From the NCBI GenBank assembly GCA_905250025.1, contig CAJNOJ010000402.1, positions 1 through 64,000 of the forward strand: 64,000 nt of DNA, read 5' to 3'. Made by a program: the position numbers and the translations under genes. Position 1 is the first letter of the stretch, and each line of letters opens with the position of its first letter. The DNA is from Adineta ricciae. Its lineage: Eukaryota > Rotifera > Eurotatoria > Adinetida > Adinetidae. This document shows, piece by piece, positions 5,713 to 45,270 of the stretch. Below the pieces are notes generated by a model, which had not been told where the DNA came from, did not search any database, and saw only the letters and a list, made by a program, of their open reading frames with translations.

Positions 5713-5768
5713 TGTCTAAATAAAAGTCAATTGAAAATTATCTAGCTGTACTGTTTTATAATACTTGG

Positions 5769-11839: not shown

Positions 11840-12883
11840 TGAATATAAAAATATTGGCTATGACTTTCGTCTTCAGTCGAATCTTGCATAATTGTTGTTA
11901 TAATATACGAACAGCTCTATACCGATGATATAAGGAAAAAATGCAATCTAACAGTCAGAAGTAAACGAAGGAACACTATATGAACTGTTATTAGGTGAAG
12001 TAATAAACTGGCAAGGAAAATTTAATAGAAAAATTAGTCTCCTTCATGGCTTTACAAGCTTTCAAAGTGATATCTCAACCTCATTATTTTAAAAAACTGA
12101 AACAGAAGGGAGAAACAAGCTATATCTTAGATCTGCATCTGCAATGATAAATCATCTATTCTGATGATTGGATAGTTCGAAACCATTCAGAAAAATATTT
12201 TTAATCGATTAGAAGTACGTATATCCGCTTAGATTAATAAATGAATGGCTGAATTATATATTGTACGTTTTATTTTTTTCCTTTCTTGTAATATACTTGT
12301 TGTATGCTAAAGACATGTTCTTGTGACAAAGATTTGCAATGATACCAGAATAAGTGTATTTCTTTTTCAGTTTAAGAACATATCTAGTTATTATACATAG
12401 AGTACTCAATAAGTTCTCGAAATGTTTATTTTTATCATCTGTTAAAGTAAGATTAACTTGCCATAATCGATCTTTGATTAATTGAACTTCCTCAATGCGA
12501 AAAGAAGTATGAGTAGAAAAAAGTAGCACTCATCCGTTGGATTCGCTGACCTTTTTATGAAAGAATCAGAAATTCCCTCGACTGAAAGGAGGGTCATGTA
12601 AACAAAAGTTTGTCTGTCTGTTTGTGTCAGGATCAAAGGTTAAAGGTCAAAAAAGCATTTTTTGAAAATGCTCAAAACGTCATGAAACATCGTTTGGAAG
12701 GAGTGTTGAGGCTAGATCTTGGTTGAGACGTGTATGCGGAAGAAGGAAGATTGAAGCTCGAAGAACACGCCGAGAGAGCGTTTGTAACTGAGATAGTCAG
12801 CGTCATCATATGCTTTCCTCAACCGAAAGGAGGACCATATGAAAAAAGTAGCTAGTGCTTATAATGTCAGTGTCAAAGGTCAC
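11840..12883. other. Intergenic, repeat-bearing
   Basis: A minus-strand open frame of 91 codons (12254-12529) is basic and helical-looking but unrecognised. Inverted copies of the CTTTCAGTCGAGG repeat lie at 12575-12715 (full length) and about 12815-12883 (cut off by the piggyBac MITE that follows). Confidence 0.45.
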
Positions 12884-18769: not shown

Positions 18770-20851
18770 ATGGAAGCGAGCAAGAGATTATCTCGATTAA
18801 CAAAGAGCAATCTTGAAATATTTTCTATCGTATGGCTCGATACTTGCGTCAATCTTGTTCAGGAAAATCCTGATGTTCAACAACGAATTCGTGCAACAAT
18901 CAATCATTTGGAAATATTTTCTGCGAAGGACGAATGTGAGCAATATATTCGATCTGTACATCCCAACGATCAGATCATTTTTATTGTCGACTGTCAATCT
19001 GGTCAAGACATTGTGCCTGACATTCATCAATTGCCACAAATTTCCTCCATATATATCTACTGTCTAGATAAGCAGAAATACGAACCATGGACGAAGTCAT
19101 TCTCAAAAGTGAACATGATTTAATGAAATTGAACAAAGATTTTTTTCTTATAATTTAGGTTTTAGATCAAAAACGTTATTGCACATGTGGATGAATTGAT
19201 CGAACAAATTCAGTCAGATCAAACTAAACGAGTTCATAATAGACATAACGAAACGCTTTCGATTGATTTTTTTCACGCAAATGAGAGTTCAGAGCAATCA
19301 AGTACGGCGCTAAACGGTCAATTTATTCATTCTCAACTTTTGATAAATTGTCTTCTTCGAATGAAATTATCGATAAATGATAAAAATGAGCTTATTTCGC
19401 TGTGTAAAGAAGAATACAACGGTAATCCAAGACAAATATCTATTGTTGGTGAATTTGAAACGAATTATTCACCTGATCGGGCTGTATGGTGGTATACAAG
19501 AGATTCATTTCTATACAAAATCTTCAACAAGGCTCTTCGAATGCAAAATATCGATGTACTTTTTCTTTTTCGATTCTTTCTTCGCGATCTTGAACAACAA
19601 CTGAAACAGTACAAATGTTCATCGACAATTCGTGTCTATCGAGGTCAACTCATATCGAATAACGAGCTAAACAAACTGAAAGCTTCGATCGGACAATTTA
19701 TTTCAATGAACTCATTTCTATCAACGACTATCGATCGTGATGTAGCGCTCTTCTTTATTGGTGATATTCATTCCTTAGACGATGAACTCAAGCCAATTTT
19801 ATTCGAGATTGATGTTGATCCCCGACTTGATGGCACCAAACCAGTTGCTGACATAACATCGCTCAGTTACTTTCATGCCGAACAAGAAGTACTCATTATG
19901 CTCGGATCAATTTTTCGTCTTACTGATCTACATCAAGATGAGAACGAAATATGGATCGGTCAGATGACGCTATGTAGCGATAATGATCATCACTTGAATC
20001 AAGTGTTTGAATTCATGAAGAATGAATATGGAACTGGAGAGACTGATCTTCTTTCATTTGGTCATAAACTAAAGGACATGGGTAGATTTGACGACGCGGG
20101 CAAATACTATCGTCGATTGCTCAATGAACTACCGTATGATCATAAAGATGTTCCACGCTGTTACCACAACCTCGGAAATATGGCGTTTCAAAAAGGAGAT
20201 TATGATTCCAGTCTCCAATGGTATAATAAGTCGCTCGATATTTGGAATCGAACACTTGAGACGAATGATCCTCTTCTAGCGACGGGCTACAATAATATTG
20301 GTCTTGTGTACGATGACCAAAATGATTCGAAGAAGGCACTTGAAATGTACGAGAAAGCATTGCAGATTTGGAAGCAAAAGTTTGGTGAGAACCATGCTAA
20401 TATAGCCAAATGTTACAATAACATAGGTGTCGTCTATCGAAAAGAGAAAAATTATCATACGGCACTTAAGTATTATCAAAAGGCACTGAGTATCCTGCAG
20501 AAGCTTCTTCCCGTCGATCATCCAGATTTAGGCTTACCACATAGTTGTATTGCCAATATTTATTATTATATGGGCGAATATGACCTTGCCTTGCACTACC
20601 ATGAGCAAGCACACAGAATCAAATTGAAAACTCTCCCTTCTCAACATTCCTCGATTGCAAATACACTTGAGAATATTGGACTTATTTACGAATGCAAGGG
20701 TGACTTACAACGTTCTCTGTCATATTATAGAAATGCATCCGACATATTTCATCATACACTGCCGTCTACACATCCAAATGTCATTAAAGTTGAGCAAAGT
20801 GTCAATCGCATTCTTTCAAAAATAATGTCAGAATGTGCTCTACATGAATAA
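18770..20851 (+). CDS. ADP-ribosyltransferase-TPR protein, copy 1
   Basis: Two exons, 18770-19108 and 19166-20851, with a 57-bp intron; total 674 aa. Residues 1-115 form an N-terminal domain (IFSIVWLDT ... IIFIVD ... IYIYCLDKQK) resembling a Rossmann-like or receiver-like alpha/beta fold, known to me from rotifer proteins but unnamed. Residues about 200-375 form a mono-ADP-ribosyltransferase domain with the arginine-specific R-S-ExE signature: Arg272 in RVYRGQ, Ser299 in SFLSTT, and Glu352/Glu354 in AEQEVL. Residues about 430-665 hold five to six kinesin-light-chain-like TPRs (YNNIGLVYDDQND type). It likely transfers ADP-ribose from NAD to protein arginines, with the TPRs selecting partners. 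There is no signal peptide, so it is cytosolic. The 28.4-kb paralog has the same intron position and length, supporting the model. Confidence 0.92.
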
Positions 20852-21177
20852 CAAGGGCTTATTGTGAAAATTAGCATGCGCTTCGATCGAGTCTTGTTCA
20901 CGTCTAATCTTTCAAACAAAAAACAGTTAATTGAAATCAGACATGAATAAATCCGTTTCTCCGAAGGGTATTGAATCAAGCTTATACATATTTTTCAAGA
21001 AAGCACACCAAATGACGTAGTCAACCGAGAAAAAGAGAAAATACCAACTAAACACTGCAAGAGCATAGAGATGATCAGTTTATTCGTCTTAGGATAAGGA
21101 TAATAAGCGTATTTCTTCACCATCATCTCAAGTCTCGATAGAGTTTTGTTGAAAATTTTGTGATTTTAACGAATAAA

Positions 21178-22000
21178 TCATTTTTCCTTAACATTCTCAT
21201 CACACTTGCAGCAAGGATGATTTTTAGTAATATAACGATAACGATAACCACAACCGTCACGTCCATGCTGGGTAAGGTAAGTATCATAGCCTTCTCCACA
21301 CCCACACCCTCAAGAATTTATTCGCTGTTTTCAATGTGACTATTTGTTGTTTAAATAGTTCGACATCAGCTGATAATTTATCGATTCTTTCCACTGATTG
21401 ATCAGCGTATTCATGTCGAAGCAATTGTGTTATCTTTTCGATTAAAGTCATATATTCTGTACTTAACGGCTTTTTGCATTGTTCGATCTCACGGACTTTG
21501 ATTTTTAAAGTTTCTTGGTATTCACTGATAATTTTCCGTAAATTTTCCAAAACTCCTGTAATCTTGCCTATATCAGCGTTTTCATCGTCTCGCATCAATG
21601 CATTCATTTCCTCTATTTTTCGATGCACTTCTCCTAGCTTATTCTACAAAATAACTTCGTTTCAGAGCATTCGGATAACTGTAATACAGAACTCACTTTT
21701 CGGATTGTTTCCGATTCGATATCATCGAGTGAACCAGCTTTTTTGTGTTTTTTTGAACGATGATCATTCGATGCTTCTGTTTCATCGTGAGAAAGTTCGC
21801 TTTTCTTACATAATTGGGAAGATTGTTCTTCAGACACATTGTTGTCCTGGAATTGAAATGTTTTAAACAAACCTCGATTGTAACAAGATAGAATCGAAAT
21901 AAAGATACACGACAAACAACCTGAATAGCAAGTCCAAATGTTTTATAAAAAGTCTCCACACTATCTTGAAAATTGCTTTCTGATGTTGAAGATAAACTGA
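21178..22000 (-). pseudogene. Coiled-coil/Cys-rich gene, truncated copy 1
   Basis: This is the counterpart of 30780-31886. The exon with SQLCKKSELSHDETEAS and the coiled-coil exon (KIEEMNALMRDDENADIG onward) are preserved with the same intron. About 420 bp are missing at about 21310: the coiled-coil frame runs into the middle of the last exon out of frame and stops soon after. The sequence that survives of the last exon also ends early (AAA TGA). An extra upstream exon (FQDSVETFYKTFGLAIQ) joined by a GT-AG intron to DNNVSEEQ can be read here better than in copy 2. Confidence 0.75.
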
Positions 22001-22422
22001 TAATGCAGGATTATTTTTTGCGTTCTGTCGAGTTATTTCGTCACATAAACTCAGTGAACAGAGTGAGTAGTCATGTGAAGGATGACATTTGAAAAACTAA
22101 GTTTTCAAAGTCAATATTCTGATCGATTTCCATCGTTTTTGTTCATCCAAAAATTAAAAACTTCATTTGCAACATATTGAAACATTTCTTCAATGTGAAG
22201 AACTCTTCTAAACTTAATTTCTTATGTAAAACAATATATTTTCTATGCCATTACCTACAATTCTTTTTCAACAATGACTCATGCATAGCAACGGAGTGTG
22301 ACGCGTTCAATTACAATTTCATTTTTTTCAGATTCGTGTCAGTATATCCGCTTCACATTGAAGAAAGAAAAGATAATAACAAAACAGAATTCGTTTCCAG
22401 AAATTAGTCGCACCACCGATTG

Positions 22423-23400
22423 TCATGGCGTGGATTCAGCGACAGTACGTGTCAGTGTAATTACAATAGCATTGTCTGTTCTTTGACGACAGCATTTTCG
22501 CACAATTCGTCGGGTCAGTTCAGGAAAGAAGCCGAGCCACACCCATGGGAAAAAGAAATAAATGATATAAATAAGATCACTGAAGTAATTTTGCTGAACA
22601 TAATTAAGGAAAGCTGGATCGACTAGAACATTGATAATATATACCAGAAGAAATGGTGTCCATCCGACGAGATAAAGTGCTGAAACAGACAATAACTGTC
22701 TTAGCATGCGTCGTTGCTGACGCCATCTGCTCAATTGTTGCACACGACGTTTCTGTAGAAACACTCGTGCAATCAAAACTGTATTAGCGAGAATGTCAAT
22801 CGCAACTGGAACACCGTTGTTCATCACGAGATCGAACGAGCCAAGAAAACTGCCATACATCAAATAACAATTAGCAAAACCGCATACTCGACTGCTGAAA
22901 TCCCATTGAGTATTGTTACATGGATACAAAAGAATCGCATATATGTAGAATACTGTTGGATAAATAATGCAGAATAAAAGTGGCAGATGATGTAGTAAAT
23001 GACATATCCAACGTTTTCGTAGAATATGTTGATGAAAAATAAATATATGGCGTTGAAGAGATATGATAGCTAAGAGATATTCACTTGATACATAGATAAT
23101 ATATTCAAAGAATGTCCACCATATACAATGGCTTGCAACAGGTGGATTTACATATCCAGATACGTAGAAATTACGGCTGAGTGGAATATCGAACACGAGT
23201 TGAACAGAATTGATGATGAGCAAAATGAATAATCCATGTTTTTGCGGAGCTTTGATAAAAGTGCGATGTTTTGTCAAGTGAAAAAAGATTAGAATTGTCA
23301 CCATGATCGATGAAATTTGTAATAGTAAGAATATAGTAAATTTGATACGATAGAAGGCGAATTTACTGCGTCCAATCGATTCCAAATCGGTGATGTTCAT
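22423..23400 (-). CDS. Rhodopsin-like GPCR, type I, copy 1
   Basis: 325 aa, single exon, seven hydrophobic segments: TM1 about 20-42, TM2 about 55-78, TM3 about 92-115, TM4 about 132-155, TM5 about 195-218, TM6 about 240-263 and TM7 about 275-298. A Cys at the top of TM3 (SHCIWW) and cysteines in loop 2 can form the conserved disulphide. The DRY motif is replaced by LQRH, and the TM7 NPxxY by FFPWVWLGFF. TM6 keeps GWTPF, close to the CWxPF switch. Start at MNIT because the upstream frames of the two copies differ while this ATG is shared. Likely an orphan chemosensory or peptide-type receptor at the plasma membrane. Confidence 0.85.
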   Translation of the reverse strand: MNITDLESIGRSKFAFYRIKFTIFLLLQISSIMVTILIFFHLTKHRTFIKAPQKHGLFILLIINSVQLVFDIPLSRNFYVSGYVNPPVASHCIWWTFFEYIIYVSSEYLLAIISLQRHIFIFHQHILRKRWICHLLHHLPLLFCIIYPTVFYIYAILLYPCNNTQWDFSSRVCGFANCYLMYGSFLGSFDLVMNNGVPVAIDILANTVLIARVFLQKRRVQQLSRWRQQRRMLRQLLSVSALYLVGWTPFLLVYIINVLVDPAFLNYVQQNYFSDLIYIIYFFFPWVWLGFFPELTRRIVRKCCRQRTDNAIVITLTRTVAESTP

Positions 23401-23949
23401 TTTTCTGATTAATAGAATATAGTATGGGTTTATTTAGTTCTTCGAATGATGCAAGTTCATAAAACATGTTTAATTTTCTCTCTTTACTGATTACTTGTTC
23501 TTTTTTCATATTAAAACTTGATTTCGACAAATTCAACAACGGAAAAGAATTTCTTACTTCATTATACACGTAATTTCTTCGCATTAAACAAACGGAAATA
23601 GCTACAACATAGATCTATTCAGTACGTGTTTCATAATAGAAAAACTAGATTAGTTTTCGTCACATCAGACACACTGAACTCGGACAAGATTCAATTCCTA
23701 ATGTAAGGATAATTGACGGATAGGGTGGAAGACTTTATCAATCTATCCATAAAAGTTATGTTCTCAGCAACTTCATTTGTATTTCTAAGATTTCAATAAA
23801 GAAATTAGAGAATGGAAATAAATAGAGTGATACTACTGATGTTTTTCTCATCAAACATGAAAATCGCTCCATATTACGCGCAAACCGATGTATAAACATA
23901 TTTTTAAAAAGATCTGATATAATAACAAAGACCGATTTAAAAAGACAGC

Positions 23950-24929
23950 TTTGAAAGGGCAAGCATGAATATGATTCCACTAATTACTGATTACTTGCCT
24001 GAAAAGTTATTGTTATATCACTCATTTTTTCGTGCTATTTATTTAATCATATGTTTTTTTCTTTTCTTTTCTCCAAAATGAAAATACAAAATTCAAAACT
24101 CTTCGCTTTTTCTTATGCATTATATCATATATGAAAAATTCTTGTTGTTCAGATTGTTTGGGAATCACCATATCTAACTTAAGATTGTGATCAATTGTAG
24201 ATGTGGTTGATAAAGCAACAATAATATTAACGAAGCATAACACTCATTTTCATTTGATAGTCGTATACTGGTTTCAAGCCGTAACTGATAACAAGAAATT
24301 TCATGTGTTCGAAACAAAATTTTTAATCAATGTAGCATTAGTGATTGAATTACATCCAGCAGTACATTAAAACACTAACACTACTCATAACAAAAAATTG
24401 ATTAAAAATTTTAACTATTTCAATTAAAGATTTTCTTTCGTGAATTCTTCGTTTTTGGTACATATTGACAATAAAGCCGGAAGTATAACATTCAGCCGAC
24501 AAACAATCTTCATATACCGTTTTCAAAGGGAATTTCCAAATAAAGTCAAACGTTATCATCAGTTTTAAATGAAATCGTACCGTCTCATGAAATTACTTCT
24601 AACGGTTTCCGTAAATGAGAAATCCTGCTTGATGCACATAGACTAAAAATCTAGAGTTTCGAATTGTGTAGATATATTGAAGAAAAATACGATTGATGGT
24701 ACAGGTACTTCACAGATCAATGAACCAGAATACCGAGTTAGCTTCGTTGGGAAAAGTTTTAAATCTTGCCATAGCGTTCAGTTTGATTAATTATTTACTG
24801 TATACATNTCTATTTCTATTCCTACCTACTCATTTGTTGTAAGTGTGATATAGATATCTGTTTATATTCGAATTGATACTAGCCTGTCGGGGGTCGACTT
24901 ATAATATAAGTCGAATTAGGCATCTCATG
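23950..24929. other. Spacer between duplication I copies
   Basis: Contains a 0.6-kb sequence (24209-24807) also present at 52394-52990, followed immediately by an N at 24808. Then about 120 bp of unrelated sequence with a palindrome GACTTATAATATAAGTC (about 24899-24915) leads into copy 2. No gene is recognised. Confidence 0.6.
24209..24807 (+). repeat. 0.6-kb direct repeat, copy a
   Basis: Nearly identical to 52394-52990 over its whole length, in the same orientation. Similarity starts at GATAAAG and stops at TGTATACAT. No terminal inverted repeat or target duplication is evident at the edges, so it looks like a segmental copy or a fragment of a longer element. The right edge coincides with the N at 24808. 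Confidence 0.85.
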
Positions 24930-25006
24930 GATATAATACTATTTTAGTTATTACAATGACACAGTGAGAAAAAATCAGAGCTTTTTTTCAGATAATCTTT
25001 ATTTTT

Positions 25007-25465
25007 ATGAGTGCTCATCCAATCACTGTTATTGCATGTGATATCGGTGGTGTAATCAGAAATGTGCAGAATGATGAACCAATTGAAAATGCTGTGGAAT
25101 CCGTGATCAAATTAGCACAAAATCCATTGAATAGAGTGATATTCATATCTAAATGCAAAGATAATTATAAACAAAGCTCAAATATGTTTCTTGAAAGACA
25201 CAATTTATCTCATATTCCAACATATTACTGTTTAGAATATGGAGATAAAATCAATATTGCTGATAATAACCATGTTAATATTATGATTGATGATAGAATG
25301 CAAATTTTAAGTACTTTTCCATCTTCAATTGTTAAAATATGGTTTTGTTCGGATATAAAAAAGATTGAAGGTGCCAGAAAATTCCAACCAGATTTTTTCG
25401 ATTCTGTTAGAATTGCTCGAAGTTGGACAGATGTAATGGAAATAATTGAAGAAACACAAATGTAA
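25007..25465 (+). CDS. HAD-superfamily hydrolase-like protein, copy 2
   Basis: 152 aa. It differs from copy 1 at only four residues that I can count (N2S, Q24E, T117I, K145E). All HAD motif residues (Asp12, Ser48, Lys81, Asp95-Asp96) and the DIGG variant are kept. The upstream in-frame extension of copy 1 is not conserved here, which supports the ATG at 25007. Confidence 0.75.
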   Translation: MSAHPITVIACDIGGVIRNVQNDEPIENAVESVIKLAQNPLNRVIFISKCKDNYKQSSNMFLERHNLSHIPTYYCLEYGDKINIADNNHVNIMIDDRMQILSTFPSSIVKIWFCSDIKKIEGARKFQPDFFDSVRIARSWTDVMEIIEETQM

Positions 25466-26489
25466 TCTATTCACTATTGTTTTATCAAACACAATTATGA
25501 GTGATCATATTTTATATTATTCCTTGATAAAATAAAAACATTTTCAAATGATCTGAAATAAACCTTAAACAGAAAAATGAGTAATCTACAATGAATATCA
25601 CTGTTTCGGTTTTATTCGTATACTTCAACTCCACAAGTTTAATCTGCCATGACGCGTTGTCGACTAACTTTCGCAATCTTATCAGATGATTTATACTCTC
25701 ATATTTGGAGAAATTTGGACAATCAGTAACGAATTCGTATTCACGTGTATATCGGTGAGAATAACGGATTTCGAACTTACTACATCAAAATGAAAATCTA
25801 AAACTGATTAAAAACCATTTAAAATGACTTTTAAATGAACTAAAGTTTGTTATACAATTAATTCGATTTTTATAGGAAGATCGAAATTGGTGATGTATAA
25901 AGCCTTCAATGGATTAAAACATCACTCGGGAGTAAATTATGTAGAACAACACATTAGAAGGCCCCCTTTTTTTTGAAAATACACCAATCAATCTTTTTGC
26001 TTCTCCTGTCTGTGAGTGTTTTAAGATCACGCCAAATAATGTTTTCTTTGTCACATTTGAAATAGTTTGTTCTTAAATAAGATCTAATGTACTTTACGGA
26101 CCTATGTGTAAATTAGTAGTGTAGTCAAAGACCGCCGGGAGAATTGGCCGGGTTGTACTGGTTGTGAAGAGAATTCTATATTTTTCTTGAAAATGTATAG
26201 TTGTTAGTGCGATACTGTTTTGTAAGTTCATAAGAAGAAACAAATTATTCATGAAATCAAACTCATTCATTATAATTGTCTGTGTACACCTTCGTCGATT
26301 TTAAAGAGCAAGAATCGATGACACGACGAGAAGGTCTAGTGAGTGTGTCGTGCACTATCGTGAACAAAACTACGAATTTGAACAGAACATAATAAATGAT
26401 CCTGGTCTATCATTTCATTCAGGAATTTAGTCAAAATTAGTAAATGGAATATTGTTGATAAAATTGTGAATAATAATTAATTCAATAGC
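25466..26489. other. Intergenic (duplication I, copy 2)
   Basis: AT-rich counterpart of 15630-16840, with deletions relative to copy 1. No gene recognised. Confidence 0.5.
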
Positions 26490-27097
26490 TGGTTGTGCTA
26501 CAAGACTATTTGCACATTGAGCAATGAGATGCAGTGGTCAATCTTCGCTTTTACCGAAAACATCATTAACATCTGCTCAAAATTGACGTAATAAGCGAAT
26601 AGAAGGTAATCTTGTGAAATTAAAACAAAAACGAATTCAGTTTTGAAAATTACAATTCAAATAATAATATAAATATCTGAATTGTTGTCCTGTTTCTTCC
26701 TAAGAATAAATCGGTCATTTTTGTGCAAAGTTTTTGATTGAATCAACTAGAAACAAAGTCATTCACATACCAAATTTTTCTTTTTGTAAAAATCAACTTA
26801 CACAAACGATAGTATATAAAATCTCTGGGCAATGCATCGGGCAAAAGTTTATATTTTGGTCAAATACCCGATACATAGTAATTACTAATGAATCAACTAG
26901 TACTATTCCATCATGTTTCCATATATTTAATAAATCGCCAGACCATTTAAAACATTGAAATTGAAACGGCAGTGATTTATGACACTCATGAAGAATTATT
27001 TGACAAGAATGTAAACGTAATTTCAAACTATGATGAAATAAACTTCTTTGACGATAATATTCACATTGTTCATAAGTTAAATGACTGTATTTCATAT
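26490..27097 (-). pseudogene. Ankyrin-type gene relic, copy 2
   Basis: The first exon (MKYSHLTYEQCEYYRQ to PEILYTIVC, followed by a GTAAGT donor) is fully open here. The ankyrin segment carries two stops: TGA at 26576-26578 (CGA in copy 1, before ADVND) and TGA at 26538-26540 (CGA in copy 1, before PLHLIA). The two copies are therefore inactivated by different mutations. Confidence 0.6.
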
Positions 27098-27710
27098 CAT
27101 CTTTATATTTATGAAATAGTCATTCATTGTCGAGTACGTATAGCATGTAATCGCATACCATCATCATCTGAGATTTGTTTTTCAATTTAAGTTTGTGAAA
27201 AGAAATAAAATGTTTCTTCATTTTTATGATCATTATAAAAATAGGATTAAGTGTATATTGTCAAGCTAAATGTGTTAAATGGAGGAGAGAGTAGATGAAT
27301 CAGCATTAATAAGACTTTATATAATGTATTGGCAACCAATCGATGAATGTCTTTACGTTTCGTCAATGTACTTCAATCAGATGCATTTTTAGATATGACA
27401 AGTGCACGAACATTATTTACTATTGAATGTTACTCGAGAAAAATTATATCAGCAAATATTCCTATTTTCTAGATAAAATGAAATACTTCTTCTTCGCCTA
27501 ACACACAGTTCAAGGTCATAGTCTTCATTTGCTTCAATTAGAAGAAATACAATAAAAAAAATAATACTATTCAGTCAGCAAGAACAACAATACAGCTTTA
27601 CAGCGATCGATGCAAAAAATATAGAAGCCATACGAATATACATCTTGGTGGTCAAAATGTGATTCGATGGAATTTGTTGTCACACAGACCATTGTGAAAA
27701 AAAAGGATGC

Positions 27711-28166
27711 CCAACGCTTAATTCAGCATTGAATAATATTACAGCAGCCGGTGTTTGGATTTTAGGTCAAGCATTGGGTAATAATTATCGATTGAAATCA
27801 TTAGCTCTTCATGGTAATCAAATCGGTGATGAAGGTCTTTCTTTTCTTACAAATAACAAGCATATCAATACTCTCAACACTGGGAATAATAAAATTACCG
27901 ACGAAGGTATAAGGCATCTTAGTCAAATGATAAAATCAAATCCATCGTCAACTAATCTATGGTTTTGCAAAAATAGAACAGGCGAGGTTGATGTTCGAAT
28001 GATAATACGACTGTTCGATTTTTGTCTTTTAATGAAAACATGTTACTTATTGGTGAAAGTATGAAAGATCGTTAATTTATCTTATTGTAATTTCTCTCCA
28101 AGAAGCAAAGAACGACTCATGCAAGCATATCAATAAAGACCATGTATAAAACTAGATATTAGATAA
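27711..28166 (+). pseudogene. Leucine-rich-repeat relic, copy 2
   Basis: Same RNI-like repeats as copy 1 (LKSLALHGNQIGDEGL, LNTGNNKITDEGIRHLSQ). The frame runs to a stop at 28064. The C-terminal continuation, in a different frame, carries an additional TAA (reading AYQ-stop) where copy 1 has AHQF. Non-functional or a relic. Confidence 0.6.
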
Positions 28167-28385
28167 GAAAAACAAGTTATACGGCGCAGAAAGCAAGAGA
28201 AAACACATGTTAATACGCTATTTAATCATCCATAACGTAATCTATTCGTTCGTGACGACGAAAATATTCTCTACTACTCTTACTCAGCAGTTTTTTCGCT
28301 TGAAGAGACAGAACTGCTTAAATACATATGAGTTGTCAATTCGATTGAGATAGTGTAAACACAACGATAGAAACGCCTAAAGTCA

Positions 28386-30466
28386 ATGGAAATGAGCAAG
28401 AGATCATCTCAATTAACAAAGAGCAATCTTGAAATATTTTCTATTGTATGGCTCGATACTTCCGTCAATCTTATTCAAGAAAATCTTGATGTTCAACAAC
28501 GAATTCGTGCAACAATCAATCATTTGGAAATATTTTCTACGAGGGACGAATGTGAGCAATATATTCGATCTGTACATTTCGACGATCAGATCATTTTCAT
28601 TGTCGACCGTCAATCTAGTCAAGACATTGTGCCTGACATTCATCAATTGCCACAAATTTCCTCCATATATATCTACTGTTTAGATAAGCAAAAATACGAC
28701 CCATGGACGAAGTCATTCTCCAAAGTGAATATGATTTAATGAAATTGAACAGAGGTTTTTTGTTATAATTTAGGTTTTAGATCAAAAACGTTATTGCACA
28801 TGTGGATGAATTGATCGAACAAATTCAGTTAGATCAAATTAAACGAGTTCATAATAGACTTAACGAAACGCTTTCGATTGATTTTTTTCACGCAAATGAG
28901 AGTTCAGAGCAATCGAGTACGACGCTAAACGGTCAATTTATTCATTCTCAACTTTTGATAAATTGTCTTCTTCGAATGAAATTAACGATAAATGATAAAA
29001 ATGAGCTTATTTCGTTGTGTAAAGAAGAATACAACGGTAATCCAAGACAATTATCTATTGTCGGTGAATTTGAAACGAATTATTCACCTGATCGGGCTGT
29101 ATGGTGGTATACAAGAGATTCATTTCTATACAAAGTTTTCAACAAAGCTCTTCGAACGCAAAATATTGATGTACTTTTTCTCTTTCGATTCTTTCTTCGC
29201 GATCTTGAACTGCAACTGAAGCAGTACAAATGTTCATCCACAATTCGTGTCTATCGAGGTCAACTCATATCGAAAAACGAGCTAAACAAGCTGAAAGCTT
29301 CGATCGGACAATTCATTTCAATGAACTCATTTCTATCAACAACTATCGATCGTGATGTAGCGCTCTTCTTTATTGGTGATACTCATTCCTTAGACGATGA
29401 ACTCGAGCCAATTTTATTCGAGATTGATGTTGACCCCCGACCTGATGGCACCAAACCAGTTGCTGACATAACATCGCTCAGTTACTTTCGTGCCGAACAG
29501 GAGGTACTCATTATGCTCGGATCGATTTTTCGTCTTACTGATCTACATCAAGATGAGAACGAAATATGGATCGGTCAGATGACGCTATGTAGCGATAATG
29601 ATCATCACTTGAATCAAGTGTTTGAATTTATGAAGGATGAATATGGAACTGGAGAGACTGATCTTCTTTCATTTGGTCATAAACTAAAAGACATGGGCAG
29701 ATTTGACGACGCGGGCAAATACTATCGTCGATTGCTCAATGAACTACCGTGTGATCATAAAGATGTTCCACGCTGTTATCACAACCTCGGAAATATGGCA
29801 TTTCAAAAAGGAGATTATGATTCCAGTCTCCAATGGTATAATAAGTCGCTCGAGATTTGGAATCGAACACTAGAGGCGAATGATCCTCTTCTAGCGACGA
29901 GCTACAATAATATTGGTCTTGTATACGATGACCAAAATGATTCGAAGAAGGCACTTGAAATGTATGAGAAAGCATTGCAGATTTGGAAGCAAAAGTTTGG
30001 TGAGAACCATGCTAATGTAGCCAAATGTTACAATAACATAGGTGTCATCTATCGAAAAGAGAAGAATTATCATACGGCACTTAATTATTATCAAAAGGCA
30101 CTAACTATCCTGCAGAAACTTCTTCCCGTCGATCATCCAGATTTAGGCTCACCACATAGTTGTATTGCCAATATTTATTATTATATAGGCGAATATGACC
30201 TTGCCTTACACTACCATGAGCAAGCACACAGAATCAAATTGAAAACTCTCCCTTCTCAACATTCCTCGATTGCAAATACACTTGAGAATATTGGACTTGT
30301 TTACGAATACAAGGCTGACCTACAACGTTCTCTGTCGTATTATAAAAATGCATCCGACATGTTTCATCATACACTGCCGTCTACACATCCAAGCGTCATT
30401 AAAGTTGAGCAAAGTGTAAATCGCATTCTTTCGAAAATAGCGTCAGAGGGTGCTCTACACGAATAA
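28386..30466 (+). CDS. ADP-ribosyltransferase-TPR protein, copy 2
   Basis: Exons 28386-28724 and 28781-30466 (56-bp intron at the same codon as copy 1); 674 aa, the same length as copy 1. The R-S-ExE residues (VYRGQ, SFLSTT, AEQEVL), the N-terminal alpha/beta domain and the TPR block are all intact. Substitutions relative to copy 1 are scattered and the frame is uninterrupted, suggesting both are under constraint. Followed after about 310 bp by the convergent coiled-coil/Cys-rich gene on the minus strand. Confidence 0.92.
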
Positions 30467-30779
30467 CAAGGGCCCATTGTGAAAATTAGCATGCACTTCA
30501 ATCGAACCTCGTCCACGCCTAATCTTTCGAACAAAAGAACGGTTAATTGAAATCAGACATGAATAAATCCGTTTCTACGAAAGTATTAATCAAGCTGATA
30601 CATATTTTTCTAGAAAGCATACCAAATGACGTAGTCAACCGAGAAAAAGAGAAAATACCAACTAAACAGTGCAAGAGCATAGAGATTATCCGTTTATCCT
30701 TTTTAGGATAAGGATAATAAGCGTATTTCTTCACCATTATCTCAAGTCTCGATAGAGTTTTGTTGAAAATTTTGTGATT

Positions 30780-31886
30780 TTAACGAACAAATAATTTTTC
30801 CTTAACATTCTCATCACACTGACAATAAGGATGATTTTTAGTAATATAACGATAACGATAACCACGACCGTCACGTCCATGCTGGATAAAACAAGTATCA
30901 TAGCCTTGCCCACACTCACAGTCCATATAAGAAGTAATATGACCCCCATGATATTCACGCTGGCGATCATAGTAATAACCGAAATGAGCTGTACATGTGG
31001 AACCTTGACGTTCTTGGAAACGCTCCGTATATTCGCCGTCGTCCCAACGCTGGCGATCTTCTTCATCCCATTCATTTTCATTTACTATCCACTCCCAGGT
31101 TCTTCGGTCACCAATATAGTACCAATCACGACATTTACTGCAAACATTACACGCACGACCTCGGCAGCTCAGCTGACCATAGGTACCTGCGGTTTTAAAT
31201 TCTAAATAAGAAGTAGTGTGAACCTAATCCACTGGATACGATTTCATTTGATCATATCCTCGAGCAAGTGAAATGCTTACCCGTAACACATGAATGATCA
31301 AGCACAGTGTTAATCTTAGCTTCTAGTTCGTTTAATTCATCAATACAATAATCGAATTTCTTTGTTGTTTTCAATGTGACTATTTGTTGTTTAAATAGTT
31401 CGACATCAGCTGATAATTTATCGATTCTTTCTACTGATTGATCATCGTATTCATGTCGAAGGAATTGTGTTATCTTTTCGATTAAAGTCTTATATTCTGT
31501 AGTTGATGGCTTTTTGCGTTGTTCGATCTCACGGACTTTGGTTTTTAAAGTTTCTTGATATTTACTGATAATTTTCCGTAAATTTTTAAAAACTTTTGTA
31601 ATCTTGCCTATATCAGCGTTTTCATCATCGCGCATCAATGCATTCATTTCCTCTATTTTTCGATGCAGTTCTCCTAACTTATTCTACAAGATAACTTCGT
31701 TTCAGAGCATTCGGATAACTGTAATACAGAACTCACTTTTCGGATTGTTTCAGATTCGATATCATCGAATGAATCAGCTTTTTTGTGTTTTTTTGAACGA
31801 TGATCATTCGATGCTTCTATTTCATCGTAAGAAAGTTCGCTTTTCTTACATAATTGGGATAAAATCATAGAATTCTCACACGACAA
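30780..31886 (-). CDS. Coiled-coil protein with novel Cys/Trp-rich C-terminus
   Basis: Minus-strand exons 31886-31737, 31683-31281 and 31201-30780, with 53- and 79-bp GT-AG introns; phases match (IRK|NKLGE and CVT|EFKTAG). The 5' end is unresolved: no ATG opens the first exon cleanly, and an upstream exon is likely, as in copy 1. A charged linker (SKKHKKAD) is followed by about 110 residues of coiled coil (KIEEMNALM ... VELFKQQIVTLK). The last exon is a 140-residue Cys/Trp/Tyr-rich module with CRGRACNVCSKCRDWYY, CTAHFGYYYD, MDCECGQGYDTC and HPYCQCDE. Paired CxxC-like cysteines suggest metal binding or disulphides. Family unknown to me; possibly a TRIM-like architecture without a clear RING or B-box. 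This last exon lacks any ATG, so it is invisible to simple ORF calling. Confidence 0.7.
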
Positions 31887-32434
31887 ACAACCTGAATAGC
31901 AAATCCAAAAATTTTATAAAAGGCTCACACAGCACCTCTATATAATATAATTATTACAAAAATCTCCACACTATCTTGAAAATTGCTTTCTCACATTGAA
32001 GATAAACTGATAATGCGAGATTATTTTTTGGGTTCTGTCGAGTTATTCCATTATATAAACTCAGTAAACAGAGTGAATCGTCACGTTAAAGATGGCATTT
32101 GAAAAACTAAGTTATCAAAGTCAATGTTCTTTTTGATTTCCTTCGTTTTCGTTCATCCAAAAATTAAAAACTTCATTTGCAACGTATTGAAACATATCAT
32201 CAATGTGAAGAACTTTTCTAAACTTAATTTCTAATGTAAAACAATATATTTTCCTATGCCATTTCCTACAGTTCTTTTTCAACAATGACTCATACATAGC
32301 AACAAAGTATGACGCGTTCAATTACAATTTCTTTTTTTTTCAGATATGTGTCAGTGTATCCACTTCACATTGAAGAAAGAAAAGATAATAACAAAACAGA
32401 ATTTGTTTCCAGAAATTAGTCGCACCACCGATTA

Positions 32435-33412
32435 TCATAGTACGGATTCAGCGACAATACGTGTCGGTGTAATTCCAATCACATTGTCTGTTCTTTGACG
32501 ACAGCATTTTCGCACAATTCGTCCGGTCAGATCAGGAAAGAAGCCGAGCCACACCCATGGGAAAAAGAAATAAATGATATAAATGAGATCACTGAAGTAA
32601 TTTTGCTGAATATAATTAAGGAAAGTTGGATCGACAAGAACATTGACAATATATACCAGAAGAAACGGTGTCCATCCGACTAGATAAAGTGCTGAAACAG
32701 ACAATAACTGTCTTAACATGCGTCGTTGCTGACGCCATCTGCTCAATTGTCGCACACGACGTTTCTGTAGAAACACTCGTGCAATCAAAACTGTATTAGA
32801 TATAATGTCAATCGCAACTGGAACACCGTTGTTCATCACGAGATCGAACGTACCAAGAAAACTGCCATACATCAAATAACAATTAGCAAAACCGCATACT
32901 CGACTGCTGAAATCCCATTGAGTATTGTTACATGGATACAAAAGAACAGCGTATATGTAGAACACTGTTGGATAAACAATGCAGAATAAAAGTGGCAGAT
33001 AATGTAGTAAATGACATATCCAACGTTTTCGTAGAATATGTTGATGAAAAATAAATATATGGCGTTGAAGAGATATGATAGCTAAAAGATACTCACTTGA
33101 TACATAGATAATATATTCAAAGAATGTCCACCATATACAATGGCTTGCAACAGGTGGATTTACATATCCAGATATGTAGAAATTAAGGCTGAGTGGAATA
33201 TCGAACACAAGTTGGACAGAATTGACGATGAGCAAAATGAATAATCCATGATTTTGCGGAGCTCTGATAAAAGTGCGATGTTTTGTCAAGTGAAAAAAGA
33301 TTAGAATTGTCACCATGATTGATGAAATTTGTAATAAGAAGAATATAGTAAATTTGATACGATAGAAGGTGAATTTACTGTGTCCAATCGATTCCAACTC
33401 GGTAATGTTCAT
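32435..33412 (-). CDS. Rhodopsin-like GPCR, type I, copy 2
   Basis: 325 aa, same length and seven-TM layout as the 22.4-kb copy, including the LQRH (in place of DRY), GWTPF and FFPWVW motifs. The open frame could extend upstream to 33553 in this copy (adding 47 residues). The equivalent stretch is out of frame in copy 1, so I place the start at the shared MNIT ATG. Substitutions are mostly conservative, with changes concentrated at the C-terminal tail. Confidence 0.85.
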   Translation of the reverse strand: MNITELESIGHSKFTFYRIKFTIFFLLQISSIMVTILIFFHLTKHRTFIRAPQNHGLFILLIVNSVQLVFDIPLSLNFYISGYVNPPVASHCIWWTFFEYIIYVSSEYLLAIISLQRHIFIFHQHILRKRWICHLLHYLPLLFCIVYPTVFYIYAVLLYPCNNTQWDFSSRVCGFANCYLMYGSFLGTFDLVMNNGVPVAIDIISNTVLIARVFLQKRRVRQLSRWRQQRRMLRQLLSVSALYLVGWTPFLLVYIVNVLVDPTFLNYIQQNYFSDLIYIIYFFFPWVWLGFFPDLTGRIVRKCCRQRTDNVIGITPTRIVAESVL

Positions 33413-34030
33413 GTTTCTGATTAATAGAATATAACATAGGGGTTTATTTAGTTCTTCGAATGATGCAAGTTCATACAACATGTTTAATTTTCTCTTTTTA
33501 CTGATTACTTGCTCTTGTTTCATATTAAAACTTGATTTTGACAAATTCAACAACGGAAAAGAATTTTTTACTTCATTACACGTAATTTCTTCACGTTAAA
33601 CAAACGGAAATAGCTACAATATAGATCTATTCAGTAACTTACGTGTTAACATAATAGAAAAATTAGGTTAGTTTTCGTCACATTAGACACACTGAACTCG
33701 GACAAGATTCAATTTCTAACGTAAGGATAATTGACGGATAGGGTGAAAGATTTTATCAATCTACCCATAAAAGCTGTGTTCTCGGAAACTTCATTTGTAT
33801 TTCTAAGATTTCAATAATAAAGAAACTAGAGAATGGAGATAAATAGAGTGATACTACTGATCTTTTTCTCATCAAACATGAAATTCGCTGCATATTACGC
33901 GCCAATCGATATATAGACATAACTTACTTTTAAAAAATTTAATATACTTTTTTTGTTTGATATTGAAAAAAAAGCCTGTTAATAGTTGTGAGTGTATTTT
34001 CTCGTCTTTTTTTTTCTTGTGGACTCACAT

Positions 34031-34055
34031 GTTTTGTTTTGTTTTGTTTTCTTTC
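34031..34055. repeat. (GTTTT)n microsatellite
   Basis: Four to five tandem TTTTG units in the spacer between duplication I and the third ART-TPR locus. Confidence 0.8.
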
Positions 34056-34650
34056 CTTCATCACAGCAAATATACAGTGAGAATGAATATTTAATGAGAG
34101 AGACTTGTCATGATCATGTTACCCAGATATTACGTGAGAATATTCCATATTTCATATAACATAAGACGTAAGAAAATTTTTCAATGCATAGATATTATGC
34201 TATTCGATGCAAATCAATACTAGAATCAATGCAATCAAAATGGGAGCAACAATGACAACAATTTTTTTTCCAGATGAAGAATTTGAACGCAATGATGTTA
34301 TACAGCTAGGACATAATGAATGAGATCCTATAAGTATATGAGGGTGAGGGTGTCAGTGAAGAGCAGTGTCTGCATTTTCACCCTCATCGACGTCCTTGTC
34401 TACATACAAACTCTCAAATGTTGACTCAACAATAAAATTTCGTCGAAAAATACTGAATTCAACCATCGTTCTGAAAGAGACAAGAGTACAAGTAAAAAAG
34501 AACATGAATATTTAAGGACGAGCAATCCTTATCTACCATTGCAGAACGTATTTAGTGAATTCTTTTATTGTTCTAACTCATATATCTTTTTCTCTAGTTT
34601 ACATAACAATACTTTTACAAAGTAATAAGAAAGTTATTATCGATTCTTAT

Positions 34651-37600
34651 ATGGCATTCAAAACAACATCGTTACAATTACCGATTCCTGTGTATTCTAA
34701 TGTTCAAACTACTATTCCGATTGAAAATGAAAATAAAGAAAGTACAACTCTTCTTTGGGTATATCCTAACACCGGTTTTCATCAAGACACTGAACAAACA
34801 AGAACATGTCTACGAAAAATTAATGATTTCGTTGTCTTTCATACTGAACTCGAAGTGTGCATTGCATTTATTGAATCGATAAAAGACGAAAAAATACTGT
34901 TGGTTACCTCAGGTTCCAGTGCAACTTCACTTCTACCACGTGTGATACATCTGCGCCAAATCGATTCCATTTTTGTTTTCTGCATCCAAAAGGCTAAATA
35001 TGAATACTTACTCAATGACTTTTCAAAGATTATTGGTATTTATATCAAACTTGATGAATTATGTCGATCTATCAAAGAACAAGTAAATCTTGTCGATAAA
35101 CAAATGGAAGCATTTAGCTATTTTGATTATCATCAAAAATCAACAAAAGATCTAACGAAAGAATCAGGTGCATTTCTTTGGTTTCAATTGTTTAATTATG
35201 CTATTTTACGTTTACCACGAAATGAACAAGCCAAAAAGCAGATGATTACAATATGTCGACAATACTATCGCGGCAATACTGGCGAACTCAAATTGATTGA
35301 TCAGTTCGATCGCGAATATCAACCAACAGAAGCTATTCGATGGTATTCCAAACAATCATTTATCTATAAACTAGTAAATAAAGCATTAAGAAGTGAAAAT
35401 GTTGACCAGTTACATACATTTCGCTTTTATATTGGTGATCTTTCAGAAAGTTTAGCAGTCGAACATAAAAAATGTTCTCCTCAGGCGAAAAGGTACTAAC
35501 TGTCTATCGTGGTGTTCAATTGGCAAGAGAAGAATTTAATAAATTGAAAGATAATTAAGGTCAACTCATTTCAACCAATGGATATTTATCAACGAGTCGA
35601 CGAAAATCACAAGCCATTGAATTTGCATTACAACCTACGAAACGAACAGATATCGTACGTGTTCTTTTTGAAATTGAATGTGATATACAACAATTAGGTG
35701 ATCGTGTCATATTTGCCGATATTGCAAAATATAGTGATTATCCTGATGAACAAGAAGTTTTATTCGATATGAATGCAGCATTTCGAATAAACAGCATTCA
35801 ACGTGAATCACAGTTCTGGTTAGTCAAAATGAATGCATCAAATCGTGGCCAAATGATCGCGAAACATTATATCGAAGAAACAGAAGAGAAAAGTATTGCA
35901 ATTATATTTGGACGATTAATGTGTAATTTAGGGCAATATGATAAATCAATTAGATACTTTGAGCAATTAATGAACGATCCGAATGATGAAGATCTCGCCT
36001 GGATTGAGTTCAATATCGGAAGAGGTTTCGATTTTAAAAATGATTGGAACGTGTCTCGAAAATTCTATGAAAGTGCATATCGACGAATGGTAAAATCAAA
36101 TCCACCACGTTTCAAAGATTCAGCCTATGTGCTTAATAATATCGGTATTAGTCTTCGTTGTCAAGGCAAATACAATGAAGCTCTCGACTATTATCGACGT
36201 GGATTAAAATCACTACAAAAATTTTATCCCTCTGGACACAAAGATATTGCACTAATTCTTAATAATATCGGAGACATTTTCTATTTACAAGGAGAATATT
36301 CTAAAGCTCTCGACTCATATGAGCAAGCACTAAAAATGCACCAAAAGCTGTATCCGACTGGTCATGCGAATATTGCTATTAGTTTGAGCAATATTGGTGA
36401 TATTTTTTGTAACAAAGACAAATATGATGAAGCATTAATCTATTATCAACAAGCGCTCGAAATGCAAAAGAAATATTATCCTTCTGGCCATGTTAAAATT
36501 GCGACGAGTCTTAATCGCATAGGTTCTATTCTTTATCATAAAGGAAAATATGACGAAGCAATCGTATATTTCCAACAAGCATTGAGTATACAAGAGAAAA
36601 CATATTCATCTGGACATATTGACACCACTACTAGTCTCAATAACATCGGTGATGCTCTTCAAAGACAAGGCAAATATGACGAAGCTCTTGTTTACTACCA
36701 GCGAGCGCTTGAAATGCAACAGAAAATATATATTTCTGATCATGTTGACATTGCTTCCAGTTTCAACAATATTGGTAACGTGTTTTATGAAAAAGGTGAA
36801 TATGATGAAGCCCTGAAATACTATCACAAAGCGTTAAACATGCAGCAGAAATGAAATCCGACCGACCATCCTGATATTGCTACTACTCTTAATTTCATTG
36901 GATCAACTCTTCATGAGCAGGGGCAGTACGATGAAGCCCTTGAATATCATAAACGAGCGCTGAAATTGCAAGAAAAGTTTTATTCTTCCGATCATGTAAA
37001 TATAGCTGATAATGTATATCGAGTTGCTCGAACACTTGCGAGCTTAGGAAAGTATGATAAGGCACTAGATTATTATCGACGTGCGCTTAAAATACTAGAA
37101 AAGATTTTTCCATTAGGTCATGTTGACATTGCTCATAATCTAAACGGTGTTGGTACTATTCTCCAAAATCAAGGAAAATACGATGAAGCTCTTCACCGCT
37201 ATAAACGAGCATTGGATATGCAACGGATGATCTACCCTTCCGGTCATGTAGATATGGCGTGGACTCTAAATTCGATTGGTACAGTTTTTAATAGTCAAGG
37301 AAAATATGCTGAAGCATTGGATTATAAACAGCAAGCACTCAAAGTGCGTGAGAAGAATTATCCATTTGGTCACGCCGACACTGCTATTAGCCTTGATGAA
37401 GTCGGTAGTACTCTTCGTTGTCAAAACAAAGATGACGAAGCTCTTGAATACTTCGAACGAGCGCTTAAAATGCGGGAGAATCTTTATGAATCTGATCATG
37501 CTGATATTGCTACCAGCCTGTGCAATATTGCCAATATTTTGTATAGCAAGGGAGAGTACGATGAAGCAGCTGTTTACAATCATCGAGCTCTGCAAATATG

Positions 37601-38309
37601 AGAGAAAGTTTATTCCACTGATCATGTTGCTACTGCTGCCAGCCTAAACGCAATTGCTGAAATCCTCAACAAACAAGGAAAGTCTGATGAAGCACTAGAC
37701 TATGCACAACGTGCCCTAAAAATGCTGCAGAACTGTTTTTCCTCCGATCACTCTGATATTGGTGATTGTCTAGGTATTATTGCTGGTATACTTGATGATC
37801 AAGATAAATACGATGACGCTCTCAAGTATTATCACAAAGCACTTAAAATGAGACAACGAATCTACCCATCTCATCATCCTGATATTGCTAAAACTCTTGC
37901 TCTAATTGCTTGTACGCTTGTAAAACAGGAGCAGTGGGACGAGGCACTTCTGTATTTTCAACGTGCACTGAAAATACAAGAGAAGTTCTATTCATCGGCT
38001 CATGAAGAAATTGCAGCAGCTCTGCAAGGAATTGGTCTTATTTTAAATGCTCAAGAAAAGTATGATAAAGCCCTTGAGCACTATCAGAGATTGGCAAAAA
38101 TATATGAACAACTATATCCTTCTGGAAGTGTTGATGTTGCGGACAATTTCAATACCATTGGAACGATTTATGAACAAAAGCACAAGCCAAAAACAGCACT
38201 AGACTATTATCAGCGTGCATTAACTATGTACGACGAATTTGTACCTGTTGAGCATCCAAGTCGAAAAGAAGTTGAGCAGAATATTCACCGTGTCAGTGAA
38301 AACCAATGA
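34651..38309 (+). pseudogene. ART-TPR gene with 17 TPR units, disrupted
   Basis: A third member of the ART-TPR family, without the intron of the other two. Start taken at MAFKTTSL. Order: N-terminal alpha/beta domain (TTLLWVYPN ... SIFVFCIQK), ART domain (VYRGVQ, GYLSTS, DEQEVL: R, S and ExE all kept), then 17 consecutive 42-residue TPRs of kinesin-light-chain type (typical unit SLNNIGDALQRQGKYDEAL). Disruptions: a -1 frame change around 35480 (between KKCS and GEKV), TAA at 35556-35558 just before GQLIST, TGA at 36852-36854 (MQQK-stop-NPTDHP) and TGA at 37599-37601 (LQI-stop-EKV). Apart from these, all repeat positions are intact across 3.6 kb, implying recent inactivation, stop readthrough, or consensus errors. 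Confidence 0.85.
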
Positions 38310-43262: not shown

Positions 43263-44195
43263 TTAACGATTAGTCAATGTCGTACTTAATCCAGTAAGAT
43301 TTCTTCGTCCGGAAAAAAGTTTTCTCAACGAATCTTTCAATGGTTCGGTGAAATAGAATAAAGTCGCAAGAAGTATTGGATACGGTAGTACGACGAACAC
43401 ATGTGAAATTCGATAATGATACAATGGAATATTTGTAAAAAATGATGTAAATATAAATGTTACATATGGGACACCAAAGATCAAAAGCATTGACACTAAT
43501 ATCACAATTTGCTTCACCATCTTTAATTCCCGTTGTGCGCGAAAGAAGACATTCACAGCTGTTGCAACATTGTTTATTGATTTGGCATATAATACTAATC
43601 GAAAATACAGAAATATAATGATCACTACAGGCACATTATATGTGCAAGATGATATCCAGATGACACCAAAATTGAAGCTAAATAAGATTTCGCAATTTTG
43701 ATTGTAAACATTGTAAACAATGTAACCAGTCAGCAATGGAATTAGAGGAAATAATAGACAAAATACGAAGGATATACACATAAGAAACAATTGTGTTCGA
43801 ATCAATTGCCAAAATAAATGAGTCGGATAAACAGCCGTCATGTATCGATGAAATGTTTGTAATGTAAATGAATGTATCATCATAGCACACGATGCAGGAG
43901 TAAAGTAACCTCGAAATAAGCACATCGAATTGTAATATTGTAATTGTTTAAGATCATTTTCTAATAGAAAGATGTACACCCAAGTCATGTTGATACTTGT
44001 AAGAAGTTGTGCAAAACATGTATAAGCAATAAACATCATCTGTAAGGTATGACAGGCTTTGTCGAAAATGATAAGAATTAGAAAAATACAATCGAAAATA
44101 ATAGTGAGAATAAGAGCAAACATTGGTATGATATCTAATGGGATAAACCATGATTCGATAACGACTGGAGTTAAAGTATTATTGAGTTCAGTCAT
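43263..44195 (-). CDS. Rhodopsin-like GPCR, type II, copy A
   Basis: 310 aa, single exon, with a short N-terminus bearing one NNT glycosylation sequon. Seven hydrophobic helices are apparent. TM3 ends in FHRYMTAV, an HRY variant of DRY. The stretch RAQRELKMVKQIVILVSMLL is a typical basic IL3/TM6 junction, and TM6 has FGVPYV. TM7 ends YFTEPLKD where NPxxY would be expected (the E-P-L-K-D form is common in divergent chemoreceptors). Probable plasma-membrane chemosensory receptor, ligand unknown. Its paralog at 61863 has identical length. Confidence 0.87.
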   Translation of the reverse strand: MTELNNTLTPVVIESWFIPLDIIPMFALILTIIFDCIFLILIIFDKACHTLQMMFIAYTCFAQLLTSINMTWVYIFLLENDLKQLQYYNSMCLFRGYFTPASCAMMIHSFTLQTFHRYMTAVYPTHLFWQLIRTQLFLMCISFVFCLLFPLIPLLTGYIVYNVYNQNCEILFSFNFGVIWISSCTYNVPVVIIIFLYFRLVLYAKSINNVATAVNVFFRAQRELKMVKQIVILVSMLLIFGVPYVTFIFTSFFTNIPLYHYRISHVFVVLPYPILLATLFYFTEPLKDSLRKLFSGRRNLTGLSTTLTNR

Positions 44196-45270
44196 TACTA
44201 ATTCTTCTGCCGATATGTTACCATTGAAATTTTGTCTTTCGAATAAAAAGAATGAACTTGAATAACTTCATTAATATTTTAAAAGAAGATTATTCTCCTT
44301 CCTGCGTTAAGACTCTTTTCATGACAGTAAAAGAAAAAGAAAGAAACTATACGACGTCAAAACTATTCTATTCAGCAAACGTAATATCACTGAAAAATAT
44401 GTTGTCTAGGAACTCATCTAGAGGGTGAGTGTGTGAATATGTCTTCGACTGGTATATTCATTCAAATGAGCAGTGCACAGAGGATGACTTAGAGGTACAT
44501 TAAATGAAGTAATTCATGTTGAAGGATCTTTAATTTAAATATTTTGATCGGATTGAAAAAGAATTATTTAGATTGCAAAACAAAACAATGATGAAGATTA
44601 CACGATTTGATGAAAAGAAAAGTAATGAAATCGAAAGAGTTTTTTTTTACCGTTAAAGGCAAAGAACTTTTCTTATCGCCATCGTAAATCTAATTTTTAT
44701 TATTAAGACGAATAGAAAGAGCATTTTATCCCACGAAAGATTTGCATCGTTCTAAGTGGATTTTGACGAAAAGAAAAGTTTTACATCAATTTCCTTTTTC
44801 AGCGTGTGTTGCTGAACAAAATGTCACTATTTTGTAGATTTTCACTTCGTTTTATCGTTGAATTATTTGAGAATTTGCAAAATGAAGCATTTTGGTGACA
44901 TTGAATGTTCGACTAAAAGATTTCCGACAATTTATGATTGTTACATTGAGAAAAGCTTTGGAACTAGTTCAAACTCAAATTGTTGGGTGTAGCGTTCCGA
45001 ACGATACTGGAAAGAAAATGAAGTTATTCCCAAATTTGAAACTGATTTACGTGTTCAAAGCGATCTTCTAAAAACATCCAAAAGGATCTTTTCAAGTGCA
45101 TCTTGTTGAGATTAATTATTAACAAGAAGATCAGCAACCATATTAGCATCGGCAATAAATACGTAATTTACAAATTAAAACAATTCAGTAAGAAAAAAAA
45201 GTATGTTTTTTCTTTCGAAGAAATTAAATTCAAGAAATGGGAAACAAACGCGTGAGTTACATCGCAGAAG
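44196..45270. other. Intergenic (duplication II, copy A)
   Basis: AT-rich with no gene recognised. Alignable to 62796-63600, with roughly 190 bp here (about 45044-45230) missing from copy B. Confidence 0.5.

Follow-up and report, generated by a model that had tools for sequence, protein, structure and literature searches.

Arginine-specific mono-ADP-ribosyltransferases of the R-S-E type (Pfam PF01129 and PF03496; Vis) are recognised by their R, S-T and E-x-E motifs. In receiver (REC, CheY-like) domains a Thr or Ser is found at the end of strand 4, and pseudo-receivers lacking the Asp exist among receiver-type domains. TPRs of 42 residues matching PF13424 and PF13374 are of the kinesin-light-chain type, and NLR-type and other repeat-bearing receptor repertoires combine an effector with a long repeat array in many paralogues. 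The family described here, found in a window of 64,000 nucleotides of the Adineta ricciae genome, resembles each of these systems in part. Its ADP-ribosyltransferase (ART) domain carries the same motifs and scores over the profile cut-off, but sits between a receiver-fold domain and a repeat array in one fusion protein, and a single genome has very many copies of it. The N-terminal domain (N-domain) differs from REC domains in having mostly Ser or Asn in place of the Asp and a Cys at the end of strand 4, and has no Pfam receiver match among the families listed. The repeats share the 42-residue unit of kinesin-light-chain-type TPRs, but are attached to an ART and, counted leniently, can number about 37 within a single frame (L065). 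As in NLR-type repertoires, many paralogues join an effector to a long series of repeats, which is homogenised in some of them, but here the output is an ART and the repeats are TPR or NHL. No NACHT or NB-ARC domain was present among the best 25 Pfam matches listed per protein for the pieces of copies A, B and C, and exon 2 of copy A is filled by ART and TPR sequence.

The original prediction of three loci with a common N-terminal domain, ART-domain sequence and TPRs was borne out by Pfam and by our own profiles, and its three-module reading (an alpha/beta N-domain, an arginine-type ART and a TPR scaffold) holds by profiles and models. All three loci lie on the forward strand. In copy A, exon 1 (18770..19108), identified by translation, encodes strands 1-4 of the N-domain, which has no Pfam match and whose receiver fold is taken from the copy C model. 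It is followed by a GT-AG intron of 57 nt in phase 0 (19109..19165) and by exon 2 (19166..20851), which encodes the last strand and helix of the N-domain, the ART, the TPRs and the stop. The ART domain (19259..20020) matches Pfam over the cut-off, and its catalytic codons were checked as R (19640-42), S (19721-23) and E-x-E (19880-82 and 19886-88). The TPR array (20039..20830), which matches Pfam TPR_12/TPR_10, was modelled by AF2 as six helix pairs plus a last helix, with high confidence over most residues. Copy B has the same arrangement by translation, Pfam and alignment, with exon 1 carrying the N-domain (28386..28724), an intron of 56 nt (28725..28780) and exon 2 (28781..30466) with the ART (28874-29635) and the TPR array. 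Exon 2 has 561 codons in both copies, with 94% identity between them. Exon 1 ends with ...SFSK before the short GT-AG intron, and the junction (...FSK-I... in copy A) is supported because copy C, which has no intron, reads across the same place. Read from the sequence, copies A and B are intact two-exon genes; no signal peptide was seen by eye in either.

Both copies sit in a tandem duplication with a unit spacing of 9.6-10.0 kb, in which a GPCR gene (with a 7tm_1 score slightly above the cut-off), an LRR fragment and a small frame whose HAD match is sub-threshold are likewise duplicated. Therefore, A and B do not constitute independent evidence. Elsewhere in the window, two near-identical reverse-strand frames with the look of seven-helix receptors by eye (43263-44267 and 61863-62867; no Pfam match for the former) represent another duplication. 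The reverse strand also carries a galactocerebrosidase-like gene of family GH59 with three Pfam domains (53729-55732) and a 6-pyruvoyl tetrahydropterin synthase gene identified by Pfam (5266-5715).

Copy C, in contrast to A and B, is to judge from its letters a dead member of the family, a pseudogene. Its N-domain (34714..35103; translation and AF2 model) is an unbroken piece without intron, and continues in one frame through the first helices of the ART up to a TAA at 35497. This front of the ART (35113..35499; own profile) thus runs out of frame into the TAA at 35497-99, and the VYRG strand is found by translation in a different frame (35484..35558) that ends with a TAA at 35556-58. The rest of the ART with the first TPRs follows (35559..36854; Pfam and own profile) up to a TGA at 36852-54, then further TPRs (36855..37601; Pfam) up to a TGA at 37599-601, and the last TPRs (37602..38309; Pfam). 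One frameshift and three stops are rather many for an assembly error. As the ART pieces lie in different frames, no single frame has all signature residues, so that the claim of a complete set at three loci stands for A and B (R, S and E-x-E) but not for C. Likewise, the array of 17 repeats ascribed to this locus was recovered as 18 matches with our own repeat profile, but spread over three stop-free pieces. The near N-domain matches of copy C (52, 49 and 44% identity) belong to open frames of 792, 1174 and 2121 residues. PADLOC matched copy C weakly to CARF (E 0.003). On the reverse strand, a probable relic of a fourth ART, of about its last 40 residues, was detected with our own profile at 12404..12523 (E 3e-6; within 12257-12529), with no Pfam match, and at three loci (L011, L020 and L056) the ART is split or shortened.

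The N-domain had been described as of about 115 residues, but actually covers about 130, because its last strand and helix fall in exon 2. The AF2 model of the copy C domain (pLDDT 75.7, pTM 0.72) is a (beta-alpha)5 CheY-like structure that matched the receiver fold by structure comparison. Thus, among the receiver, TIR and SEFIR-type folds proposed for comparison, the receiver was the one found, from this model; TIR and SEFIR were absent both among the 50 matches listed for it and among the Pfam families listed. With 31 members searched against Pfam at E 5, no receiver model appeared among the best 25 of the 29 families matched, and the best E value for any family was 0.0066. An N-domain profile gave no PDB match at E 10, and a single-sequence PDB search gave nothing significant. 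According to the copy C model, from which it was assigned, the phospho-acceptor position lies at the end of strand 3. Of 57 distinct places, 46 have Ser there, 9 have Asn and 2, copies A and B, have Asp. As both carry this Asp, which is absent from the other 55, their N-domain may be phosphorylated. At the end of strand 4, Cys is present in 51 of 56 N-domains, and an S-G-x-x-G loop is common.

Regarding the ART, PF01129 scored 27.1 and, in another search, 30.0 bits in copy A and 26.8 bits in copy B against a cut-off of 22.3, PF03496 was also over its cut-off in exon 2 of both, and at E 0.01 PF01129 matched 20 of 21 chosen family members. A profile of these 21 domains matched 20 PDB sequences at E 0.01, the best being Vis (4xzj, E 3.4e-15); the matches include CdtA, iota toxin Ia, HopU1 and XopAI, and some of the names are uninformative. 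In the alignment of the 21 domains the columns of R128, S155, E208 and E210 are invariant. Among 46 full N-linked ARTs, a count that leaves out 10 partial pieces from seven genes and L009/L010, which are repeats of A and B, 34 keep all of R, S, E and E and 12 have at least one of them changed. AF2 run on an alignment of five rows gave a pLDDT below 50 for the ART part of exon 2, and therefore the ART fold rests on the profiles and the motif. From these, copies A and B would be arginine-type R-S-E mono-ADP-ribosyltransferases, as far as can be inferred.

Putative ADP-ribosylhydrolases of PF03747 are abundant in the same genome, with 58 of 67 scored candidates over the cut-off, corresponding to about 45 loci after merging. 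Many of these matches contain a single in-frame TAG, perhaps from short introns ending in TAG. At two loci, L068 (C360:22300-25200) and L069 (C470:5400-8200), an ART gene without an N-domain in the stretch examined is followed in the same orientation by a hydrolase gene whose start lies within about 1.1 kb of its own, and each may be a writer-eraser pair or a fusion. A general writer-eraser neighbourhood was rejected, since four pairs of an ART or N-domain gene with a hydrolase gene within 10 kb were found among the matches listed, compared to 3.5 expected.

The region behind the ART is variable in the family. By a lenient count, the numbers of TPR units are 14 in L067, 17 in L070, 20 in L066 and L071 and 37 in L065 (32 with our repeat profile). 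In the last of these (C112:75900-82900), one uninterrupted frame of 2121 residues carries more than 30 TPRs behind the N-domain and the ART match. Other members (L039, L042, the first gene of L044, L050, L051 and L053) have a tail of about 95-105 residues after the ART. In L046 and L052 an NHL propeller follows the N-domain and the ART (Pfam E 1.2e-29 and 9.8e-28), and in L051, which is near-identical to these NHL members, the frame stops about 46 nt short of NHL sequence. NHL matches were also detected close behind two further N-domains, on contigs C183 and C4. Additionally, PF01129 and NHL matches lie near each other at C390:14349-15833 and C447:21226-22803, in frames with agreeing listed lengths (567 and 603 aa), which by sequence could be ART-NHL fusions, possibly without an N-domain. 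The suggestion that variation in repeat number reflects rapid evolution had been drawn from copy C, a pseudogene, but it gains support from the variation among open-frame relatives and from the selection in two of them described below.

The family is large. Two N-domain searches, of which the best 150 of 581 and the best 150 of 574 candidates were considered, gave at least 239 distinct places on 162 contigs of the same genome. An ART match lay downstream of the N-domain in all 52 distinct places with downstream sequence (55 N-domain matches minus two window duplicates and one cut by the end of its locus), and in all five further loci L061-L065. These places were sampled by how similar their N-domain is to those of the window, so distant branches may have other partners. 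ART-type sequence extends more widely than the N-domain family, with 12 of the best 150 of 553 PF01129 candidates at 1.5 kb or less from a listed N-domain. Close-relative scans revealed no close relatives of the N-domain in prokaryotic genome contigs or in viral contigs (query P0001), no match of the ART consensus in genome contigs and none of the ART in plasmids at E 1e-3, and the only phage matches of exon 2, from three Wolbachia phage records, fell within the TPRs. One viral-contig match (L059) was rejected as a chance similarity of 25 residues; the frames of this contig look phage-like. Searches of the open full-text literature, outside of which fall most subscription journals and bioRxiv, listed no paper with a receiver-ART-TPR family in its title or abstract. 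Public rotifer proteomes presumably hold such proteins under automatic ART names.

The explanation that we favour for the whole, although tentatively, is an intracellular ART recognition-plus-effector repertoire, most likely in internal defence. According to this proposal, copies A and B would be intracellular arginine-type enzymes, in which the TPR array (or the NHL propeller in some relatives) would hold a partner protein, and the R-S-ExE domain would transfer ADP-ribose from NAD+ to an arginine of this partner or a neighbouring protein. The receiver-fold domain, whose phospho-acceptor is lost in most relatives, might act as a regulatory or self-assembly module, the mark could be reversed by the abundant ADP-ribosylhydrolases, and the family would be a large and still diversifying repertoire. 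A more specific version, which we regard as rather doubtful, would be an intracellular receptor repertoire of an animal lineage, with hundreds of genes and arginine ADP-ribosylation as output, in which TPR or NHL arrays, some homogenised and diversifying at ligand contacts, present foreign or altered proteins to the ART, with a repurposed receiver-fold switch and a hydrolase brake.

The same modules could instead serve stress signalling, with the family taking part in the desiccation and DNA-damage response and the TPR arrays choosing host proteins for arginine modification during drying and repair. Published expression hints suit this role no less than a defensive one. In Adineta vaga, ADP-ribosylation is among the processes to which most genes with raised expression in both of the compared desiccation conditions belong (PMC10809525), and GO:0006471 is enriched among genes whose expression is lowered in spaceflight (PMC12220480). 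The authors of both papers discuss PARPs. However, the passages concerned name no ART-TPR genes; the string 'ribosyl' has no occurrence in the main text of PMC11258130 and PMC5916493. PARPs themselves are numerous in the genome (125 exon-level matches of 143 scored), and housekeeping targets explain poorly the hundreds of copies, the variable arrays and the selection at ligand positions. We consider this alternative rather improbable.

Selection bears on a second alternative, in which a duplication-prone and weakly selected gene family drifts, with many members dying and without repertoire function, the number of TPRs being a by-product of unequal exchange. The death of copy C and probably of the relic at 12404, the split or shortened ARTs of three loci, the tandem duplication in the window and two TPR dN/dS values above 1 among the pairs listed are in its favour. 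Nevertheless, copies A and B (dS about 0.107) are under purifying selection, with dN/dS values of 0.24 for exon 2, 0.61 for exon 1, 0.20 for the ART and 0.28 for the TPRs, and of 0.15-0.30 for ART and TPR across estimates. The ART value was below 0.8 in all 20 pairs listed. TPR values were available for 19 overlapping pairs; they were higher than the ART value in 16, equal in one and lower in two, a comparison that we take as supporting evidence only. The catalytic residues are also kept in most members, as described above. A reading of the N-domain as a fast sensor was dropped, as its excess over the ART between A and B was inconsistent across other pairs.

Further evidence against drift came from the positions of the 42-residue unit. 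Positions 2, 5, 9, 12 and 13, which we take from the TPR literature to be ligand contacts, were used unfitted, although amino-acid counts per position had already been inspected, and the test covers arrays inside the family. For unit pairs at least 60% identical, ligand positions, unlike the rest of the unit, had more non-silent than silent change, both in L066 (pN 0.408 vs. pS 0.278, elsewhere 0.124 vs. 0.189; permutation p 0.001) and in L070 (0.283 vs. 0.051, elsewhere 0.091 vs. 0.179; p 0.008). These two are close relatives, and therefore their results are not independent. With all pairs of 19 L066 units the values were 0.421 vs. 0.279 at ligand positions and 0.141 vs. 0.223 elsewhere, with permutation p 0.001 over the 42 positions and 0.002 within helix A. 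Unit positions 3 and 35 are also highly variable in both arrays. In two copy C pieces (6 and 3 unit pairs at 50% identity), ligand positions varied most (p 0.002 and 0.007), with silent sites near saturation. There was no ligand-position effect in L065 (p 0.35, 3 pairs); L067, L071 and the third copy C piece had no usable unit pairs, and neither A nor B has near-identical repeats. Taken with the constraint on the ART, these patterns make drift unlikely. Least probable is a scaffold without catalysis, in which the TPR array would be the working part and the ART would serve as a spacer or to bind NAD+ or ADP-ribose, since despite the 12 of 46 domains with a changed R, S or E, the other 34 keep all four, these are invariant in the 21 chosen members, and no other part is as constrained between A and B as the ART.

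If the favoured reading of a recognition-plus-effector repertoire is true, it would mean repertoire-scale recognition in an animal through ADP-ribosylation rather than through NTPase switches, and would leave an unnamed domain of hundreds of copies to define. GO:0006471 also gathers ART-type genes. The enrichment for ADP-ribosylation in desiccated or space-flown bdelloids would then have to be read differently, because ART-TPR genes could be counted there beside PARPs. The proposal also makes testable predictions as to arginine marks, catalytic residues and target binding in the TPR groove.
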